Program-made: the position numbers and the translations under genes
Shown: piece after piece, positions 5,297-22,473 of the stretch
How positions within the stretch are numbered: the first letter of the stretch is position 1
Layout: each line of letters begins with the position of its first letter
Notes under the pieces: model-generated
What the model was told of the DNA's origin: nothing
The model's database searches: none
The model's input: the letters and a program-made list of their open reading frames with translations, nothing else
Source: a virus
Virus record (IMG/VR): IMGVR_UViG_3300031565_000380
Coordinates: 1-23,679 of that record
Length of the DNA stretch: 23,679 bases
Reading direction: 5' to 3' (one strand)

Positions 5297-6073
5297 TTAC
5301 TCCAATATTCTAAAAGCTAAGTTACCAGTTTTATAAATGTTCGGAAGGTTCTTGCCCGTTTCTTCTTTGAGCTTGAACTTCGTAGCCTTACCATCTTCAG
5401 GTGTTTTATCTAAAATCACCTGGTTAAAAGTGCCGCTGTCATCCTTGTCTGGCATGAATTCAATCGCACCGCGATTAGTAGCAAAGGTCAAGAAATCAAT
5501 GGCGTCTTGTGTGCCGTTTAAGTTTGTGCGAATGACACCGCTTCCCATCGGTAGGTCTGTGATGAACATTAAATCCATCTCGATGAATCTAACATCGCCG
5601 AATGATATGACCTCTATTTTTCCGGAGGCACTTTGATTAACCGAAGCGTCGGCTTTTTCTTTACGGAAGCCTGGGGCGACGTAGTTTTGGGGAGGGAACT
5701 GGGTAATGTATTCTGAACCGGCTGGTGAGTCGCCGGAATAAGTGAGCAGGCCAGTGAGATCAACAGTGCCAGTAAAGCCGAACACAGAATAAGCGCCACT
5801 AGCAGCGTTAGTGCCGGTATTAATAAGCAAATCAAAAGCACCGTCAGCAGTAATCGTAAAAATTCGCGTATCACGATTAACATTAACAGAGTATGTCAAA
5901 AGTCCAATAGCATTTAAAAGTTGTTGAAGCTCTGCAGCAAGACCCGTTAGAGAATAAATACCAAGGTCCAGTGTGCCGGATAATTCTCCAGCGCCCTCGT
6001 TAATATCAATACTTGGTTTTGATAACGTGATCTGTGTGCCGTAGTAAAATTTAGAGAATGTTGAAATTGCCAT
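5297..6073 (-). CDS. Tail protein downstream of tape measure (distal-tail or tip component)
   Basis: ATG 6073 overlaps the tape-measure stop (TAATG), so the two are translationally coupled. The 258-residue protein appears beta-rich in its N-terminal two thirds and has a mixed C-terminal part (DVRFIEMDLMFITDLPMGSG, then DGKATKFKLKEETG). There is no signal peptide or membrane segment. The gene after the tape measure in siphophages usually encodes the distal tail or a minor tail protein, so that role is inferred from order. I do not recognise a named family. A highly hydrophobic frame embedded antiphase at 5614-5883 is treated as a shadow. Confidence 0.65.
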   Translation of the reverse strand: MAISTFSKFYYGTQITLSKPSIDINEGAGELSGTLDLGIYSLTGLAAELQQLLNAIGLLTYSVNVNRDTRIFTITADGAFDLLINTGTNAASGAYSVFGFTGTVDLTGLLTYSGDSPAGSEYITQFPPQNYVAPGFRKEKADASVNQSASGKIEVISFGDVRFIEMDLMFITDLPMGSGVIRTNLNGTQDAIDFLTFATNRGAIEFMPDKDDSGTFNQVILDKTPEDGKATKFKLKEETGKNLPNIYKTGNLAFRILE

Positions 6074-8181
6074 TATGCTGTCACCACTCTGGTTCCACCA
6101 GCTTCGAAAGTGTCGTTTAGAATTTGTGCTATTTGATTGCCAACCTGCTGCGGATCCAACACCGTGCCCTCTACATTGATGGCAACTTTGGTTGTTTTTT
6201 CTTCAACTAAGTCTTCGCCAAAGTCCTGATCTTCTGGAAGCGTAACATTAGTTGGTGATAGTGGAGTTGATGCACTCGCCTCGCCACCGCCACCACCAGT
6301 CACCGCTGATAAAACTCCACCGAATGTTGCAAGAGCAGCACCGGATGCAATCATCGCAGCACCTACTCCTTGAAATCCAGGCACTACAGAATAAGCAAGA
6401 CCCTCTAGAATAAATCTAGTTCCAGATTGAATTGCCATTTGACCAATTGCTGAGATAAATGTCTTAGCGAATGCCTCGATTGCATTGTCTCCATTTGCTA
6501 AGGCTTTACCGAAAGACGCGAACGCCTGACCGATTCCACCAGCAAGTTGATTCCTTGCAGCGACACCGATCTCCACCATTTTCTTCTTTAATTGATCTGA
6601 ACGTGCTCCAAAGTTATCAACACTCATTGCGACAGTCTCATCAATAGTTTTAAATGCTGAAGTAAATGATGGAACTAACTCAGATGGATCGAACTGCTGT
6701 AATATCGGAGATTTTTGTTCACCCTCGGCATCATCTGTTTTAATCGGATCTAGAGGTACGTTGGATGCCGCTACAAGTGCGTTTCGCTGCGCTGTTAACT
6801 CTGCAAACTTTAATGCAAGCGCATCAATGGCTGGCTGAAGATCCTTTGCAGCCTGATCGGTGTCTAAAAAGAAACGATCAAGACCAATGCCGCCTTGGGT
6901 TAGATCGAATTGTTCGGCCTGCAAACCGCGAAGTCTTTCGTTAACACTTTCAATTTGTGAATCTAAAAGAGATAATGGACCAGATGCGCCAGCCGAAGAT
7001 ATAAAGTTCCGTATTCCGCGAGCTGCGTCTGTAAAGAATTGAATGTTCTCTTTAAGTCTAGGTCCTATCAATGAGCCAAGAGTTGTAGACAGTGCAGTCA
7101 ATTCGTTTTTTAATCTCTCTACTGCTGATCCAGTAGTTCGGTTTACTCTGCCGAACTCAATATTTAATGCGCTGTTTTTAGTGTATTCATCTGCCTGAGA
7201 AGATAGTGCTGCGGTTAACTTATCATTAGCAAACACAAGTGGTACTAAAGACTTTAAAGTTCTTTTATTATCAAGACCTAATTCTCTTAGTGCTACCGTC
7301 AGACCAACAGATCCGCCCTTAACTTCACCCAGTCTTTTAATTAATAATTCAAAAACACTAAGGGCATCTTCATTAAATTGCTTTTTTAATTCCTCGCCAG
7401 ATATTCCAAGAACTTTAGTGAAGTCCTTTAGTTTCTTTCCGCCACCACCAATAGCTTGGGCGATTTTAATAAACGCATCACCAACAGCAGTACCGGAACC
7501 CTCAGCCTTTGCACCAACAGATTGAAGCGCAGCACCTAGAGCTAAACCCTCCTGTGCCGAAAGTCCAAACTGTGCCGTTGCACGGATTACTTCGTTACCA
7601 GTGGCAAGTATGTCGCCCTCTGTAGCTTCGAAGTTATTGCCTAAAGCAACAAGCACCGATGAAAGGCGATCAATATCCTTAACACCTTGGCCAGTTACGT
7701 TCAGCATTCGCACTAAACTTTGCGCTGCTGTTTCTGGGTCAATGCCCTCAATGGCGAACTGTAATTTTCCAACAGTCTCTGCGAACTTAATAATGTTATC
7801 AGAACCGCGAACACCGAATTGTCCGGCAACTTGTGCGAGCCTTAATAAATCGGTTGCCGTAACTGGTATCTGAGTTGACAGCTCCTGTAGCCTTGTGCCG
7901 ATAAGACCTAAGTCCTTCTCTGCAATGTTTGTTGTTTTACCAACTCCGACTAGGGCTCTTTCGAATTTAATAAAATCTTGGGTTATTGTTTGCGCAATTC
8001 TTAACGATGCAAACCCAGCGGCAAATGTTATTAACTCTTTTCTAATGTTGGTGAATGCACTCTTGAAAGAACTATCTATTTCATTAGCTGCCTTCTTAGC
8101 AGATCGCTTAACAGTGGCCAGACCTTTTACGATCTGACCATTATCTAAAACAATTTCTATCTCAAGTTTTTCATCAGCCAT
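6073..8181 (-). CDS. Tail tape measure protein
   Basis: This 702-residue protein directly follows the tail chaperone genes and overlaps the preceding stop by 8 bases. Its N-terminal 240 residues match the core of TP901-type tape measure proteins: long helices with stretches such as TTNIAEKDLGLIGTRLQELS, then repeated Ala/Gly-rich helices. The C-terminal third has hydrophobic Ala/Gly helices (about 575-625), a poly-Gly linker near 627 and a small terminal domain. Tape measure proteins set tail length and are released or inserted on infection. At roughly 0.15 nm per residue, 702 residues suggests a tail near 100 nm; this is an estimate from the family rule. No peptidoglycan hydrolase domain is evident. 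Confidence 0.9.
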   Translation of the reverse strand: MADEKLEIEIVLDNGQIVKGLATVKRSAKKAANEIDSSFKSAFTNIRKELITFAAGFASLRIAQTITQDFIKFERALVGVGKTTNIAEKDLGLIGTRLQELSTQIPVTATDLLRLAQVAGQFGVRGSDNIIKFAETVGKLQFAIEGIDPETAAQSLVRMLNVTGQGVKDIDRLSSVLVALGNNFEATEGDILATGNEVIRATAQFGLSAQEGLALGAALQSVGAKAEGSGTAVGDAFIKIAQAIGGGGKKLKDFTKVLGISGEELKKQFNEDALSVFELLIKRLGEVKGGSVGLTVALRELGLDNKRTLKSLVPLVFANDKLTAALSSQADEYTKNSALNIEFGRVNRTTGSAVERLKNELTALSTTLGSLIGPRLKENIQFFTDAARGIRNFISSAGASGPLSLLDSQIESVNERLRGLQAEQFDLTQGGIGLDRFFLDTDQAAKDLQPAIDALALKFAELTAQRNALVAASNVPLDPIKTDDAEGEQKSPILQQFDPSELVPSFTSAFKTIDETVAMSVDNFGARSDQLKKKMVEIGVAARNQLAGGIGQAFASFGKALANGDNAIEAFAKTFISAIGQMAIQSGTRFILEGLAYSVVPGFQGVGAAMIASGAALATFGGVLSAVTGGGGGEASASTPLSPTNVTLPEDQDFGEDLVEEKTTKVAINVEGTVLDPQQVGNQIAQILNDTFEAGGTRVVTA

Positions 8182-8478
8182 TCATTCGCATCCTTGCAAA
8201 AGCTTTAGCTACGTCCTGTATCGAACCGAGCTTTCCCTTAGTTCTGTTCACAAGATTTCTAATTCTGCTCTTGTGCCTTCCAACTGTATTTTTCCTATCT
8301 TCTTTCTTCATGTGCGGCGCAAAGTGTGCCTCGAAAGTAAATAGTTGCTCCTCTGATGATAACACGTCTATGGCAAGGTAATATTCGTTAAAAACTGCAG
8401 CCGTCATGTTATCAATCGTGTCGGGTGTCCAGCCATAAAAGCGTGATGCCCTAGCCTTTATGTAGGCGTAGTTACTTA
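8174..8478 (-). CDS. Tail assembly chaperone T domain, made by -1 frameshift as a G-T fusion
   Basis: The frame reads from the slippery site at 8485-8479 to the TGA at 8174. After a -1 slip the ribosome continues VSNYAYIKARASRFYGWTPD and on through the ATG at 8407 without a stop, adding 101 residues to the 84 of the upstream chaperone (about 185 in total). The FYGWTPDTID and LSSEEQL stretches resemble the T domain of lambda GT-type chaperones, which bind the tape measure and recruit tail tube subunits. The ATG at 8407 gives a 77-residue frame and would be the automatic call, but it lacks a good ribosome site and would cut off the conserved FYGW segment. I therefore prefer the fusion. Confidence 0.8.
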
Positions 8479-8730
8479 CTTTTTTTCGACTAAACCCAGT
8501 AAACCTTCTGAAAGTTTCCTGATCTGGATAACATCTAGATCTTCTGAAACTTCTTTGGGTAAACCCAACTCAGCGAGTAGGTCAATAAATGCACCCATCT
8601 CGCTGCCTTGTTTCTTTCCTAAACTTTTTTGATATGTTTCGCTCTGTTTAACAGTCGGAGCACTCATCTTGTACTCCGACCCTCCAACTTTCACGTTACA
8701 TATAGCTTTTGAACCTAAATCCAAATCCAT
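8476..8730 (-). CDS. Tail assembly chaperone (gpG-like)
   Basis: ATG 8730 has GGAGAAG a few bases upstream. The product is 84 residues, mostly helical after a short beta N-terminus. It lies between the major tail protein and the tape measure gene, the standard place for the tail assembly chaperone. Its last codons, GTC GAA AAA AAG TAA, contain the heptamer A AAA AAG in the correct phase for -1 slippage. The normal product ends at 8476, and a minority of ribosomes are expected to make the longer fusion. The assignment rests on position, size and the frameshift, since chaperone sequences are poorly conserved. Confidence 0.82.
   Translation of the reverse strand: MDLDLGSKAICNVKVGGSEYKMSAPTVKQSETYQKSLGKKQGSEMGAFIDLLAELGLPKEVSEDLDVIQIRKLSEGLLGLVEKK
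8479..8485 (-). promoter_or_regulatory. -1 programmed ribosomal frameshift slippery heptamer (A AAA AAG)
   Basis: On the minus strand the zero frame reads GTC GAA AAA AAG TAA, so A AAA AAG has the canonical X XXY YYZ phase, and the stop follows at once. A short potential hairpin (GCCT/AGGC with a 6-base loop, 8467-8454) begins 11 bases downstream; it is only 4 base pairs and its role is uncertain. The -1 frame stays open through the T-domain coding region. Confidence 0.82.
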
Positions 8731-8752: not shown

Positions 8753-9643
8753 TTACAAGACTCCAGCTTGATTAATATCACCAATGACGATCATGTCAAG
8801 ATCTGGTCTTGTGGCTGTTAGATCAGGAATTGCATCCCAAGAAACAGTCAATGTCCTAGGATTCTCACCAGAGAACACCAAGGATCCAGGCGTTGGAATT
8901 GCCAAACGCATAGTAAAGTTGTAGGACAATTCGTCACTTTGGAAGTTCACCGGAATGAATTCTAGACGAGCGCCTTCAATAACTAAGTTCTTTCCAATCT
9001 GGCCAGTGCCTGCGCCGTAAACTGTAGACGAAGGTCCTGCGAAAGATTCGCCGTAAATCTTATAGATTTCACCAAGATTTGAAAGCGTAGTTTCTTGCAA
9101 AACAGTTTCAACATTAGCAGAGAAGCCCTGAACAAGCTTAGCTGTAATGGTTGTTCCTGTTTGCTGAGAAGTCACATCGAAGTTCGATGGCTCGAATGTA
9201 GGAGAAGGTTCACCTTCTAATAATCCAAGGTCAAAGTTCTTACCTCTACGGCAAGTTGTGATTGAAACGCCACTGTCAACGTCTACAGTGTCGGCAACTT
9301 CGCCAACAAGAACGCCAGTGATTGTCACAACATTTCCGCTAATGGTTGCAGTAAAAGCAGGATCTGCATCAACAGCAACCTGAACAAGTCCTGCAATTAC
9401 AGCTGCGCTGTCACCAGTAGTAACAGAAGCTTCAATAAGTCTGCCTCCTGATGGTGTTGCCGGTGGTGTTGAACCAGCGTCTAGGTCAAACCAAACTCTT
9501 GCTACAGCACCAGTGCTGTCGGTTACATCGTAAGATGTTCCGTCTGGATTAACTAAACTAGAATGGTCAACGGCAGATTGAGCTTCAATCCTCCAGAATA
9601 CATTCACGGGTGAAATTACTATGTTATTACTTGCGCCTGCCAT
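8753..9643 (-). CDS. Major tail (tube) protein with inserted beta domain
   Basis: ATG 9643 has a strong AAGGAGGG 6 bases upstream, one of the best ribosome sites in the window, fitting a protein needed in many copies. The 296-residue protein carries the stretch FDLGLLEGEPSPTFEPSNFD near residues 137-156, typical of phage major tail proteins. Residues about 28-128 (VARVWFDLDAGSTPPA onward, to DVDSG) look like a separate beta module also found in many phage structural proteins, probably exposed on the tube surface. The gene lies between the tail completion gene and the chaperone. There is no sheath gene next to it, which argues for a non-contractile tail. Confidence 0.83.
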   Translation of the reverse strand: MAGASNNIVISPVNVFWRIEAQSAVDHSSLVNPDGTSYDVTDSTGAVARVWFDLDAGSTPPATPSGGRLIEASVTTGDSAAVIAGLVQVAVDADPAFTATISGNVVTITGVLVGEVADTVDVDSGVSITTCRRGKNFDLGLLEGEPSPTFEPSNFDVTSQQTGTTITAKLVQGFSANVETVLQETTLSNLGEIYKIYGESFAGPSSTVYGAGTGQIGKNLVIEGARLEFIPVNFQSDELSYNFTMRLAIPTPGSLVFSGENPRTLTVSWDAIPDLTATRPDLDMIVIGDINQAGVL

Positions 9644-14371: not shown

Positions 14372-15220
14372 TTAAACGTTGCCGTCTTTTATGATAAGCG
14401 CTGACTCTGTTCCAGCAGCAGTACCTTCACCAAGCTGAACGCCTTTCACGCCGAACAACTGATCCATTGCCCAAAGTTGAGCAGTAGTTCCGTAGCCGAT
14501 TGCATTTTCAGATGCAAGCTGTGGAGAACGTTGAAACCCATAAACAAGACCCTCTTTACCAGCAAGATAAAAAGTAGTCGCGCCAAGAGCGTTGTGACGA
14601 ATCACTGGAGCGCCGAAAAGAGTTCCAATTTGACCAGCGCGGATTGCACCGTTTGGCCCGTAAACATCTTGTCGCTTGTACTCATCAATGTTCAATAGAG
14701 TTGTTTCAGAGTCACCAGATACAACCCAAGCAGCCATGTCCATGTCGCCTTCGTTGTTTAGGTAAGCATCTCTCATCTCTAGAGAAATTGCATAAGAAAA
14801 AGCACCAGCAGTAGTAGTTGCAATTCCAACTGTTTCCATTTCAGTAATAACTTCTGTGTCGAAGCGGCGTCCATGCGCAGATGCAGCGCGAGCAGCAGCT
14901 TCCAGTTGAAAGTTAAGAGTTGATTGAACTTCGTCGTTAGCGTCTACCAACCAACTGCAATATGGACGATGGTTCAGGTCCAATTTATCCACAGAAGCGG
15001 TTAGCGCCTGAGGAACACCTAAAACACCAGATGCACGATCAGGAGCAGTAAAGCTAGTTAACTTCGGAAAGCTAATAGACTGAGCGCCCTTCACTGCGTA
15101 CTGAGAAACGTCCATGAAAAATGGAGCTAGTTTAGCACGAAATTGAATTTCTCTCTGAACGCGTGCAGCGATCAGATCTTGTTTGGTTGCGAGTAGTTCC
15201 GTATTACCTGTGATTGCCAT
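14372..15220 (-). CDS. Major capsid protein
   Basis: The 282-residue protein follows the scaffold gene, the usual order. The start ATG 15220 has an AGGA site about 8 bases upstream. The N-terminal helix (LIAARVQREIQFRAKLAPFF), the beta stretch (VKGAQSISFPKLTSF) and the later FGAPVIRH and QLWAMDQLFGVKGVQL segments are typical of HK97-fold capsid proteins of siphophages. The short N-terminal arm suggests assembly with a separate scaffold rather than a cleaved delta domain. No protease gene is seen nearby. Confidence 0.87.
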   Translation of the reverse strand: MAITGNTELLATKQDLIAARVQREIQFRAKLAPFFMDVSQYAVKGAQSISFPKLTSFTAPDRASGVLGVPQALTASVDKLDLNHRPYCSWLVDANDEVQSTLNFQLEAAARAASAHGRRFDTEVITEMETVGIATTTAGAFSYAISLEMRDAYLNNEGDMDMAAWVVSGDSETTLLNIDEYKRQDVYGPNGAIRAGQIGTLFGAPVIRHNALGATTFYLAGKEGLVYGFQRSPQLASENAIGYGTTAQLWAMDQLFGVKGVQLGEGTAAGTESALIIKDGNV

Positions 15221-15249: not shown

Positions 15250-15903
15250 TTATCTGAAGTAAGGCGCACCAATCGCCCGTCCTTCCTGTCTATCTATTTC
15301 ATTTGCTAATGCTTTCTGTTCTTCAACAGTCATATCAGCAATTGATTTTTTCTTTTGAACAAACTCAGTTGATGGATTTCCGCTATTTATCTTTGGTCCT
15401 TGTTTACTAAACAGATATGGTCTGCTTTTCTTCTGCTCTTCAATCATCGCTTTTAGCTCATCTTGATCAGCTCTAAAAGTTTCCATATCAACCTCAATAC
15501 TTTGCAGGTCCATTAACTTTCCCAGAGCTTCTGTATCAACGCATCCGAGTTTTGCAGCCACAGCTTCAACCTGAGAGATAAGTGAATTGAAAGCGAAGTT
15601 ACCAGCCAATTGCTTTTTGCCCTTAGTAAGTTCCTCAACTTGTTTCTTCAATCTCTCATTGCTTTCGGCAAGGTTTCCCTCAGCCTCAAGCTTAGCCTGC
15701 CGTTCACTTTCAAGTTCTAACGCAAGCATATCTGCTCTCTGTTTTTCACTTGCAGCGCGACGCTTCTCTCGAAGCAAACTCTCGTATTTTACAGTGTTAT
15801 CAGAACTGGGAGACCCTTGTGCTGATTGCTCATTGGATTCCTGACTGTCTGGGTGACCCGTCTCGTCTGGCGCTGGAGATCCAGCCTTTACTTGTTCACT
15901 CAT
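15250..15903 (-). CDS. Capsid scaffolding protein
   Basis: ATG 15903 has AAGGAGAG about 9 bases upstream. The 217-residue protein has a low-complexity acidic N-terminus (about 1-38), a long charged coiled coil (about 40-97, KYESLLREKRRAASEKQRAD onward) and a basic C-terminal part. This is the build of phage scaffolds, which guide capsid assembly and leave the shell before DNA filling. Its place just before the major capsid gene supports this. No serine protease motif is apparent, so it seems to be a scaffold without a protease. Confidence 0.8.
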   Translation of the reverse strand: MSEQVKAGSPAPDETGHPDSQESNEQSAQGSPSSDNTVKYESLLREKRRAASEKQRADMLALELESERQAKLEAEGNLAESNERLKKQVEELTKGKKQLAGNFAFNSLISQVEAVAAKLGCVDTEALGKLMDLQSIEVDMETFRADQDELKAMIEEQKKSRPYLFSKQGPKINSGNPSTEFVQKKKSIADMTVEEQKALANEIDRQEGRAIGAPYFR

Positions 15904-20136: not shown

Positions 20137-20967
20137 TTATTTATTCAGACTACGACGCCACTCATCCAGTTGCTTTGTGTTGGTGAAGCGTATTTGTAGT
20201 TCAGCCATGGGATGGCATCCAGCTTTTTCTTTATATCGAAATAGGCCAGGATATTTATACATTAAATAGGCGCAGTCTTTAATCTTTCTTGGCAGGCGTT
20301 CTTCGTATGTTCCGATGCCGCCTTTTTCGTAGTGCCCAGCCCTGGGTATGATGAAGTTATTGATGAGCACCCCACCGAAGTGAAGCAGGTTCTCGGCGGT
20401 GAAGCCGAAGTCCTCCATGGCTTCGAGGTTTAAATCATAGTCCAGGCCCATGTTCTTTATGATGGCTATTTTTGATATCACGTATCCGACGGATCGGTAC
20501 TTCTTGGCTAGAAAGTAATAGTTCGGCACCGTGGAGAAGCCACAGTATTTAACGTTAATGGCTTCGGCAATGGAGATGTCCCTATGGCACAGTTCGATAA
20601 ACTCCGTTGAGTTGTACTCGTGGTCGTAGATGGTTTTATCAAACCCTGGATCAGTAACGTTCAGTTTCATTTTACCATAGTGCTTTGGACTAACGCCTTT
20701 TATCCCGCGGACGTTGTCGTCCATCGTCATGAACCATTCCTCCTTCTCTGCGAAGTTGCGAATAATCCAACGCCGCTGATTGGCAATGCCTCTGTCGGCG
20801 TTGGAAACAATAATCTTCGATGGGTCAATGGTGGGGTTGCGACAGTAATCCTTTTTATGCTCCTCGGTGTGTAGGAGAATATTATAATTCGTAACACCGC
20901 CATCCTCTAGAAATTTATGAGTGGTGATGGTGTCGGCTCTACCGTATGAGGGTATAATAATTTTCAT
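20137..20967 (-). CDS. GT-A glycosyltransferase associated with TET/JBP (base-J glycosyltransferase-like)
   Basis: ATG 20967 overlaps the dioxygenase stop by 4 bases (ATGA). The 276-residue protein begins with MKIIIPSYGRADT, the first strand of a GT-A fold. It continues with a conserved RG..NQRR segment (59-66) and then WFMTMDDNVRG, in which D83-D84 are at the DxD-like metal and sugar-nucleotide site. A later ED pair (185-186) may be the acidic catalytic region. Glycosyltransferases of this build are linked by gene neighbourhood to phage TET/JBP enzymes and are related to the kinetoplastid base-J glucosyltransferase. The predicted role is transfer of a sugar to hydroxymethylated bases in phage DNA. 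The sugar and the exact base cannot be read from the sequence. Confidence 0.8.
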   Translation of the reverse strand: MKIIIPSYGRADTITTHKFLEDGGVTNYNILLHTEEHKKDYCRNPTIDPSKIIVSNADRGIANQRRWIIRNFAEKEEWFMTMDDNVRGIKGVSPKHYGKMKLNVTDPGFDKTIYDHEYNSTEFIELCHRDISIAEAINVKYCGFSTVPNYYFLAKKYRSVGYVISKIAIIKNMGLDYDLNLEAMEDFGFTAENLLHFGGVLINNFIIPRAGHYEKGGIGTYEERLPRKIKDCAYLMYKYPGLFRYKEKAGCHPMAELQIRFTNTKQLDEWRRSLNK

Positions 20968-21827
20968 TTCTTCAAGCCCTTTACATGCGCCATGTACTTG
21001 CGGTGTTTATATTCTTCACTGTCACGGGTTTTTTGAATTTCCTCTTCTATGTTACCAGCCTTCGTTAGCGACTCCAACGCATAGAAGACAATACTATATC
21101 TGGAGCTGTCCTTACCTAGATTACTAATTGGCGTTACGCCATGCACCAGGGACTGCCCATCGAATATCAGTAGTGACCTGTCCTGTAGTTTTACTTCAAC
21201 GTCCAGGCTGGGGACCATTAGGTTACCGCCAAGGCTTTTAGTTTTAAACACGACCATGTTGCTAAACACGTTCTTGAAGTTGTTTCTGTCGGTGTGGAAG
21301 TTCAACCGGTTGTTTTGGTTAACGATGGCGCTGGTAAAGGGCGACTTGCCCAGTTTGTAGCCAAGGCGAATGGCGCTGGAGAACTCCTGGTGAATAGCGT
21401 ATATGTCAGGAGCGAAGTCTTTATATTGCTCTGAAACATAGTGGGCCATGTCTATTAGTCGGCCATACAGCTTCGGATATTCGGTGTTGCTTTTGCAGGG
21501 TCCGGCCGGCAAGTGATACATTGCATTTCGTTTGCGAGCGCCGAAGGTTGTTTCAGCTCCCATTTTTCTAATATCCTCGTAAACAAAAGACTCACGATGA
21601 ACGTATCCGAGCCTATTGGTATCTGAGAACTGAACACTGGGGAGTGTGGCCTTTACATCGCTAAATAATCCCTTCGGAATAATGGCGTGCTTCATAAAGG
21701 GAAGCCCGTCCATGTAAATCTCAAACTCCCCACTGAGGATATTCTTCGTTTTAAATGTGCTGGCTTCCTTCCCTATTAAACTTTCATCCTCTGGTGGCTT
21801 GTTGTTCAGGTGTATAATCTCAGGCAT
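20964..21827 (-). CDS. TET/JBP-like 2-oxoglutarate/Fe(II) DNA base dioxygenase
   Basis: The 287-residue protein has a double-stranded beta-helix dioxygenase core in its C-terminal half. The segment FTSAIVNQNNRLNFHTDRNN supplies the HxD pair (H178, D180), SLGGNLMVP the Gly-Gly turn (200-201), FDGQSLVHGVTP the distal iron ligand H229, and SSRYSIVFYA the 2-oxoglutarate-binding R243. The N-terminal part has GARKRNAMYHLPAGP, consistent with TET/JBP relatives. Known family members oxidise 5-methylcytosine or the thymine methyl group in DNA. The gene overlaps the ParB-like gene by 8 bases and the glycosyltransferase gene by 4, so the three are surely co-expressed. A generic prolyl-hydroxylase-type enzyme is the main alternative; the neighbouring glycosyltransferase makes the DNA role more likely. 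Confidence 0.8.
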   Translation of the reverse strand: MPEIIHLNNKPPEDESLIGKEASTFKTKNILSGEFEIYMDGLPFMKHAIIPKGLFSDVKATLPSVQFSDTNRLGYVHRESFVYEDIRKMGAETTFGARKRNAMYHLPAGPCKSNTEYPKLYGRLIDMAHYVSEQYKDFAPDIYAIHQEFSSAIRLGYKLGKSPFTSAIVNQNNRLNFHTDRNNFKNVFSNMVVFKTKSLGGNLMVPSLDVEVKLQDRSLLIFDGQSLVHGVTPISNLGKDSSRYSIVFYALESLTKAGNIEEEIQKTRDSEEYKHRKYMAHVKGLKK

Positions 21828-22473
21828 TGTCTAACAGCTTTTCAACTAGCTCACTAGCGTTTTGCACTTCGTATTTTTTAAACAGCGCGGACATCTTGTC
21901 GACAATCTGCAGGTAATGATCCCGTTCGTACATGAGAACAATCTTCCCACTGGTGCCGATCATCTCCCCACTAGCGCGAAGGTTGTCTTTCCAAGACCCC
22001 TCGCCCAGGTCACCGTCTTCGGCAATTGCACCTACAACTTCATCCTCCTCAGTTCCGAGCAAGTCGTCTAGGTTAAAGTCGGGTATGCCGAGCATTTCAA
22101 AGTCAAAATCATCACCGAATTCCAGGTCTTTAAGGCTCTCCAGTATTCGGTCCTTGTCGGTGGTGGCTAGCTTTGCAATTTCATTATCCGCCACCATGTC
22201 AGCATATTCATGCTCTTCACTTTGGTAGTCCTGGAAGTCGACGGCGGCGTTCTGCCACCCAGCTTTTTGAAGCGCCTCCAGACGGCCATGTCCCTTTACG
22301 ATCAGGCCGGTTTGGTTGCTCACGATAATGGGTGCGCGCTGTCCCTGGAACTCCATTATTCTCGCCAACAGGCTGACTTGCTGCTCGCTGTGAATGTTGG
22401 GATTCCTGGGGTTTGGCTTGAGTTCTGTGATTGGGATGATTTTAGTGTGTGCACATTTAAAAGCTTCTGGCAT
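21820..22473 (-). CDS. ParB-fold domain protein heading the modification/packaging operon
   Basis: ATG 22473 has a strong GGGAGG 5 bases upstream. The first ~105 residues form a ParB/Srx-type domain: IPITELKPNPRNPNIH, LIVKGHGRLEALQKAG with the GxGRxxA core (61-67), and YADMVADNEIAKLA. This version, with the IADN-like segment, resembles the ParB domains that accompany or are fused to phage DNA methyltransferases. The C-terminal 110 residues (SWKDNLRASGEMIG; FKKYEVQNASELVEKLLDNA) hold no methylase motifs and may bind DNA or partner proteins. It is the first gene of the leftward operon and overlaps the dioxygenase gene. A role in choosing or presenting DNA for modification or packaging is inferred. 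Confidence 0.78.
   Translation of the reverse strand: MPEAFKCAHTKIIPITELKPNPRNPNIHSEQQVSLLARIMEFQGQRAPIIVSNQTGLIVKGHGRLEALQKAGWQNAAVDFQDYQSEEHEYADMVADNEIAKLATTDKDRILESLKDLEFGDDFDFEMLGIPDFNLDDLLGTEEDEVVGAIAEDGDLGEGSWKDNLRASGEMIGTSGKIVLMYERDHYLQIVDKMSALFKKYEVQNASELVEKLLDNA

Follow-up and report, generated by a model that had tools for sequence, protein, structure and literature searches.

Introduction

Between the major tail protein gene, named by its position, and the tape measure gene of an uncultivated tailed virus of bacteria lie two small overlapping frames, and the locus raises the question of whether they are two separate genes or one gene that also yields a longer fusion product. The window, by which we mean the whole stretch of DNA analysed here, comprises positions 1-23,679 of the IMG/VR virus record IMGVR_UViG_3300031565_000380. 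Its late genes are on the minus strand, where the order is presumed tail tube, G, T and tape measure. Our results point, with high confidence, to programmed -1 ribosomal frameshifting between two genes that form a tail assembly chaperone pair of the lambda/HK97 type. The features on which the argument is built are the following.

8753..9643, minus strand: presumed major tail (tube) protein, 296 aa, named by its position directly upstream of G
8476..8730, minus strand: G, putative tail assembly chaperone of 84 aa, read in the zero frame, with its ATG at 8730 and TAA at 8478-8476
8479..8485, minus strand: slippery heptamer A AAA AAG, phased as X XXY YYZ, abutting the G stop
8451..8471, minus strand: candidate stimulatory stem-loop of 7 base pairs with one bulge, beginning 7 nt past the heptamer
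8174..8479, minus strand: T, the -1 frame extension of 101 codons plus stop; after the shift its first codon is GTA (8479-8477)
8405..8407, minus strand: first ATG of the -1 frame, 24 codons past the shift, a gene caller's likely start for T
6073..8181, minus strand: tape measure protein, 702 aa, matching phrog_13339 (E 3.4e-51) and PF10145 (E 3.1e-21)

Results

The slip site and the two frames

The 3' end of G reads GAA AAA AAG TAA. The heptamer is thus at 8485-8479(-) with the TAA adjacent, in the canonical phase and just before the stop of the 84-residue frame, where the original prediction had placed it. Two further claims of that prediction were confirmed in the letters of the window: the -1 frame is open on the minus strand from 8569 to a stop ending at 8174, crossing the G stop and encoding FYGWTPD ahead of the ATG at 8407, and the fusion, announced as having about 185 residues, has 84 + 101 = 185 aa, with LVEKKVSNY as its predicted junction residues (junction segment LVEKKVSNYAYIK). 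The 24 T residues that standard annotation was said to lose correspond to exactly 24 codons between the shift and ATG 8407; they read VSNYAYIKARASRFYGWTPDTIDN, FYGWTPD included. As the -1 frame of the window has no ATG, GTG or TTG before 8407, translation of FYGWTPD requires either a shift or a rarer start. At its other end T overlaps the start of the tape measure gene by 8 nt.

The string AAAAAAG is unremarkable by itself, since the window holds six copies and shuffled versions of it hold 10.7 on average (100 shuffles); another copy is found inside G, at 8630-8624, and is out of phase by its coordinates. What stands out is its place: of 138 mechanically listed ORFs of at least 120 aa from the window and 17 further loci, only one has a phased A AAA AAN directly against its stop, and this single positive is the G frame of one relative (L004), read from an early start.

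We infer from the sequence that slippage takes place, that it has a certain rate, that the ribosome is the slipping agent and that G and the G-T fusion have roles like those of their lambda counterparts. Most ribosomes would stop at the stop codon of G and release the 84-residue chaperone. A minority would slip back one base when two lysine tRNAs occupy A AAA AAG, re-pairing from AAA AAG to AAA AAA, and these would bypass the adjacent stop and follow the -1 frame to 8174, producing the 185-residue G-T fusion. The stem-loop that begins 7 nt past the heptamer probably raises the rate of slippage. By analogy with lambda, G would coat the tape measure protein, and the fusion would recruit the tail tube subunit through its T part.

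Conservation of the site in relatives

Viral contigs were scanned for relatives with two queries, the tail tube protein and the N-terminal 130 residues of the tape measure protein. This gave 21 further contigs, hence 22 rows with the window, representing 18 lineages. Second views of contigs already counted were dropped (L007-L010, L018, L021, L022, L030), and near-identical pairs (L012/13, L023/24, L025/26, L029/31) were collapsed for the tests on 18 lineages; the alignments A5 and A6 have 19 rows, with L012 and L013 both kept.

In all 21 relatives, and thus in all 22 rows, G has an in-phase A AAA AAN at its 3' end and the -1 T frame is open; in the relatives this frame extends for about 100 codons and reaches the start of the tape measure gene. 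We looked for relatives in which both frames persist but the heptamer is gone, and none of the 21 is of this kind. The heptamer is A AAA AAG in 13 rows, A AAA AAA in five, A AAA AAC in two and A AAA AAT in two. The G stop abuts it in 19 of 22 rows (16 of 18 lineages), and lies one codon beyond it in L019 and six codons beyond it in L023 and L024. This conservation is observed across divergent proteins, with identities to the window of 20-46% for G and 21-35% for T. The length of the A run also varies, from A6 (three rows) through A7 (eight) and A8 (four) to A9 (seven), and so does the stop codon of G (TAA, TAG or TGA), whereas the phase of the heptamer is constant.

Searches beyond this set were mostly negative. 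Genome contigs searched with the tape measure and tail tube proteins yielded no relative, phage records gave no significant match to the G-T fusion (best E 3) or to the tail tube protein, and the matches of the tape measure protein in phage records all had less than 60% identity, none spanning 80% of the protein. Three of these tape measure matches, Cellulophaga phiSM, Pseudoalteromonas B8b and Vibrio 2.096.O, were inspected and left out, as the G/T pair of the window is not shared by them.

The neighbours of the pair are recognizable to different degrees. The presumed tail tube gene is a conserved neighbour of G in the relatives; in a family scan its product matched phrog_2175 'Ig domain' (E 1.1e-6) and, weakly and over 58 residues, a tail sheath family (E 0.0012). 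The PF10145 match of the tape measure protein is absent from the eight related contigs scanned, despite similar tape measure starts.

Coding constraint upstream of the first ATG

If the ribosome enters the -1 frame at the heptamer, the 24 codons before ATG 8407 are protein-coding in that frame. Over these codons the -1 frame contains no stop in any of the 18 lineages, versus 42 and 53 stops in the other two frames. The mean pairwise BLOSUM62 score is 1.88 in the -1 frame, versus -0.34 and -0.36 in the others, and controls with permuted residues reach at most -0.82. Nucleotide differences peak at the third positions of the -1 frame (0.665 per site, versus 0.468 and 0.446). The 24 residues upstream of ATG 8407 are thus conserved as protein in the -1 frame only. 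Together with the 21 of 21 relatives and the order V-G-T-H, this supports the original reading of the locus as a lambda-type G/GT -1 frameshift.

The near-identical pair L012/L013 has no synonymous difference in T codons 1-24 (72 bases), whereas G has 12 and the remainder of T has 9. The same codons hold a 9-bp stem-loop, and such synonymous silence is expected if RNA structure is kept there too.

The downstream stem-loop

Pieces of 38 nt were folded at 26 places around the site in the 18 lineages. The lowest mean folding z (-1.41) was that of the piece 4-41 nt past the heptamer, the next being -0.78, and seven of the 18 lineages have z < -1.5 in this piece. For the window the 38-nt piece has a z of -2.53 in the scan and of -2.15 by the folding tool, and longer folds give weaker values (-1.04 over 70 nt, 0.11 over 81 nt). 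In the window itself, then, the stem-loop is of modest strength, which changes with the piece chosen for folding.

The two arms are matched within lineages. When the 3' halves were redealt among lineages, the mean energy rose from -9.08 to -6.01 (sd 0.52), and none of 2000 permutations reached the real value; three control places gave z of -1.43, -1.15 and -0.57. The signal comes mainly from six lineages whose own half ranked first, and the window ranks 6 of 18. Lineages with an AAG-ending heptamer have a mean stem-loop z of -2.03 (11 lineages), versus -0.51 for the other endings (7 lineages), which is a trend only (Mann-Whitney p 0.10). An upstream Shine-Dalgarno-like stimulator was sought around the sites and no consistent one was found.

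Structure and family matches of G and T

The structural model of G has a beta-hairpin and four helices, with a mean pLDDT of 79.6. Foldseek gave it no match at E <= 0.001; its first match was 2OB9, the HK97 tail assembly chaperone (E 0.099, probability 0.84). A second structural comparison (VIA) ranked 3FGX (Z 5.9), 3KLU (5.5), 2OB9 (5.2) and 5IR0 (5.0) ahead of the next entry at 3.5, all of them in the range, Z < 8, where according to the tool a match may reflect a common arrangement. We take 3FGX and 3KLU to be tail chaperone structures as well. Family profiles point in the same direction, weakly: phrog_166 'tail protein' matched five of 19 G rows, the best being the G of the window itself (E 0.0093), and PF10109 Phage_TAC_7 matched three of 19 (best E 0.0027). 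A profile search of solved structures with G returned nothing relevant.

The model of T is all-helical (pLDDT 83.9), with no significant structural match in the PDB. It has no significant profile match to lambda T (hhalign, E 0.57), nor to nine T domains of the lambda/HK97 type taken together (E 0.15). The description of this frame as T-like draws on position and frame, and no sequence homology to the T of lambda or HK97 was detected.

Discussion

Alternatives to ribosomal slippage

The break between G and T lies at a homopolymer, which is where one would look for a sequencing error or a frame-breaking mutation that split one gene. Yet the same break is found in 21 contigs from separate metagenome assemblies with low protein identity, and run lengths and stop codons differ among them. 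The relatives thus already refute this explanation, to which we give practically no credit. Hardly more probable is that the heptamer is incidental and T a separate gene coupled to the end of G, started in its own frame at ATG 8407 or at a non-standard codon such as ATA. Stop-start coupling is common in phages, and a start codon lies between the shift and the FYGW-type motif in six lineages (L004, L005, L006, L019, L020 and L025/L026, where for L025 and L026 the start codons were counted by eye from the sequences and the ATG precedes the motif), so that a separate T is possible there. The interval is however devoid of ATG, GTG and TTG in 15 of 22 rows and 12 of 18 lineages, the window included, and a separate T would therefore miss the most conserved stretch in these lineages. 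The 24 codons ahead of ATG 8407 evolve as protein. Nor is it credible that the in-phase heptamer is kept by accident in all 22 rows, because none of the 137 other long ORFs in these loci has one abutting its stop.

The agent of slippage could also be the RNA polymerase, which on the A run would make transcripts one base shorter (or two longer) that are then read conventionally. We regard this as improbable, if less so than the previous two explanations. It fits the presence of a homopolymer A run touching the site in every row, and seven of the 22 rows have A9, a length class tied to transcriptional realignment, which one study associates with A runs over 7 (PMC3711429). The lineages with A9 (L014, L020, L028, L029/L031, L032 and L034) rarely have the stem-loop, with z < -1.5 in one of six (L029), versus six of 12 among the others (raw counts), which is a hint of transcriptional slippage in them. 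Against the polymerase, the run of the window is A7, below the run of about 8-9 or more taken as a criterion of transcriptional slippage, and half of the rows (11 of 22) are A6 or A7. The phase of the heptamer is constant at every run length, and the stem-loop stands at ribosomal spacing with matched arms in the A6-A8 lineages. For the window, three features speak for the ribosome rather than the polymerase, namely the A7 run, the stem-loop and the unchanged phase.

The position of the heptamer against the stop and the contrast in stem-loop strength associated with A9, itself a hint, are mild peculiarities of the system. They might have a mechanistic meaning. The slip site abutting the stop would make competition with release factors part of the signal, and the mechanism could have been swapped among lineages, with ribosomal slippage aided by the stem-loop at A6-A8 and slippage by RNA polymerase, or unaided slippage, at A9. 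We hold this to be speculative and rather unlikely.

Comparison with known systems

Programmed ribosomal frameshifting between G and T is an already known type, and the present case very probably extends it to a further phage group. The window shares with lambda its gene order (V-G-T-H in lambda, from the major tail protein through G and T to the tape measure), a -1 heptamer that is in phase and close to the 3' end of G, and a T frame open beyond the G stop. It differs in that the lambda heptamer, G GGA AAG, lies five codons before the G stop whereas A AAA AAG touches the stop here, in that its T has no detectable sequence homology to lambda T, and in that the ATG-less overlap of T is short in most relatives of the window. 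HK97 (gp13 and gp13-gp14) resembles it in that a -1 frameshift is annotated in the stretch that separates the gene of the major tail subunit from that of the tape measure, and the gp13 structure, 2OB9, is the sub-threshold top Foldseek match noted above. However, a simple pattern search found no in-phase heptamer of the A/G type in the last 80 nt of gp13, T-domain profiles do not match the T of the window, and in HK97 a moron gene separates T from the tape measure gene.

Antonov et al. 2013 measured frameshifting at two HK97-like tail chaperone genes and reported values of 6 and 7% (PMC3711429). Atkins et al. 2016 describe lambda G-GT frameshifting, its roles and its wide conservation, and mention that some tailed phages seemingly need no stimulator (PMC5009743). 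The heptamer of the window, A AAA AAG, is also that of Escherichia coli dnaX, where it is accompanied by a downstream stem-loop (PMC3711429, PMC5009743). But dnaX is another gene, its shift gives the shorter product, and its Shine-Dalgarno-like upstream stimulator has no consistent counterpart in the group of the window. From slip site to stop, the PRFect paper (PMC10885494) gives mean distances of 26 nt for the phages of its training set and 36 nt for those of Xu et al., whereas 19 of the 22 rows here have 0 nt.

We found no published report on this phage group in a limited literature collection. The case extends a conserved tail chaperone frameshift to uncultivated phages in which family libraries barely detect G and T. 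The fusion can be found where homology fails, from a slip site at the stop, an open -1 frame and the neighbouring genes. Routine annotation would report two genes, and the T it reports would be missing its best conserved part. The natural series of A6-A9 runs, heptamer endings and stem-loops at one homologous site would allow a direct comparison of ribosomal and transcriptional slippage.

Other observations

Two loci outside the set of relatives deserve mention. L002, found through a 25-residue match to T, was not counted, being outside the set defined by tail tube and tape measure. At L002:2513-3321 this different phage has a T-like frame (FQGWTPDTIDNLT) placed -1 to the upstream frame; their overlap has no in-phase A AAA AAN, and the lone in-phase two-triplet heptamer, AAACCCT, is far from the stop. 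This can be read as a result against strict heptamer conservation beyond the group. The other locus is that of Cellulophaga phage phiSM (L015:3321-3919), where two genes annotated as 'hypothetical' lie between tail tube and tape measure and overlap in -1 frames at GTT TTT TAG; from their arrangement they are possibly a tail chaperone frameshift of another type, absent from the annotation.

Elsewhere in the window, a scaffold-like protein at 15250-15903(-) (PF06810, E 6.9e-8, just under the cut-off) adjoins the major head gene at 14372-15220. Further along, a TET/JBP-type oxygenase at 20964-21827(-) (PF12851, E 1.2e-19) is clustered with a TET-associated glycosyltransferase at 20137-20967(-) (PF20691, E 1.6e-9) and with a weakly matched ParB-like protein at 21820-22473(-) (PF02195, E 0.0071, under its cut-off). 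From these family matches, the region 20137-22473(-) is likely a cassette for the oxidation of 5-methylcytosine and its glycosylation, which would hypermodify the phage DNA.
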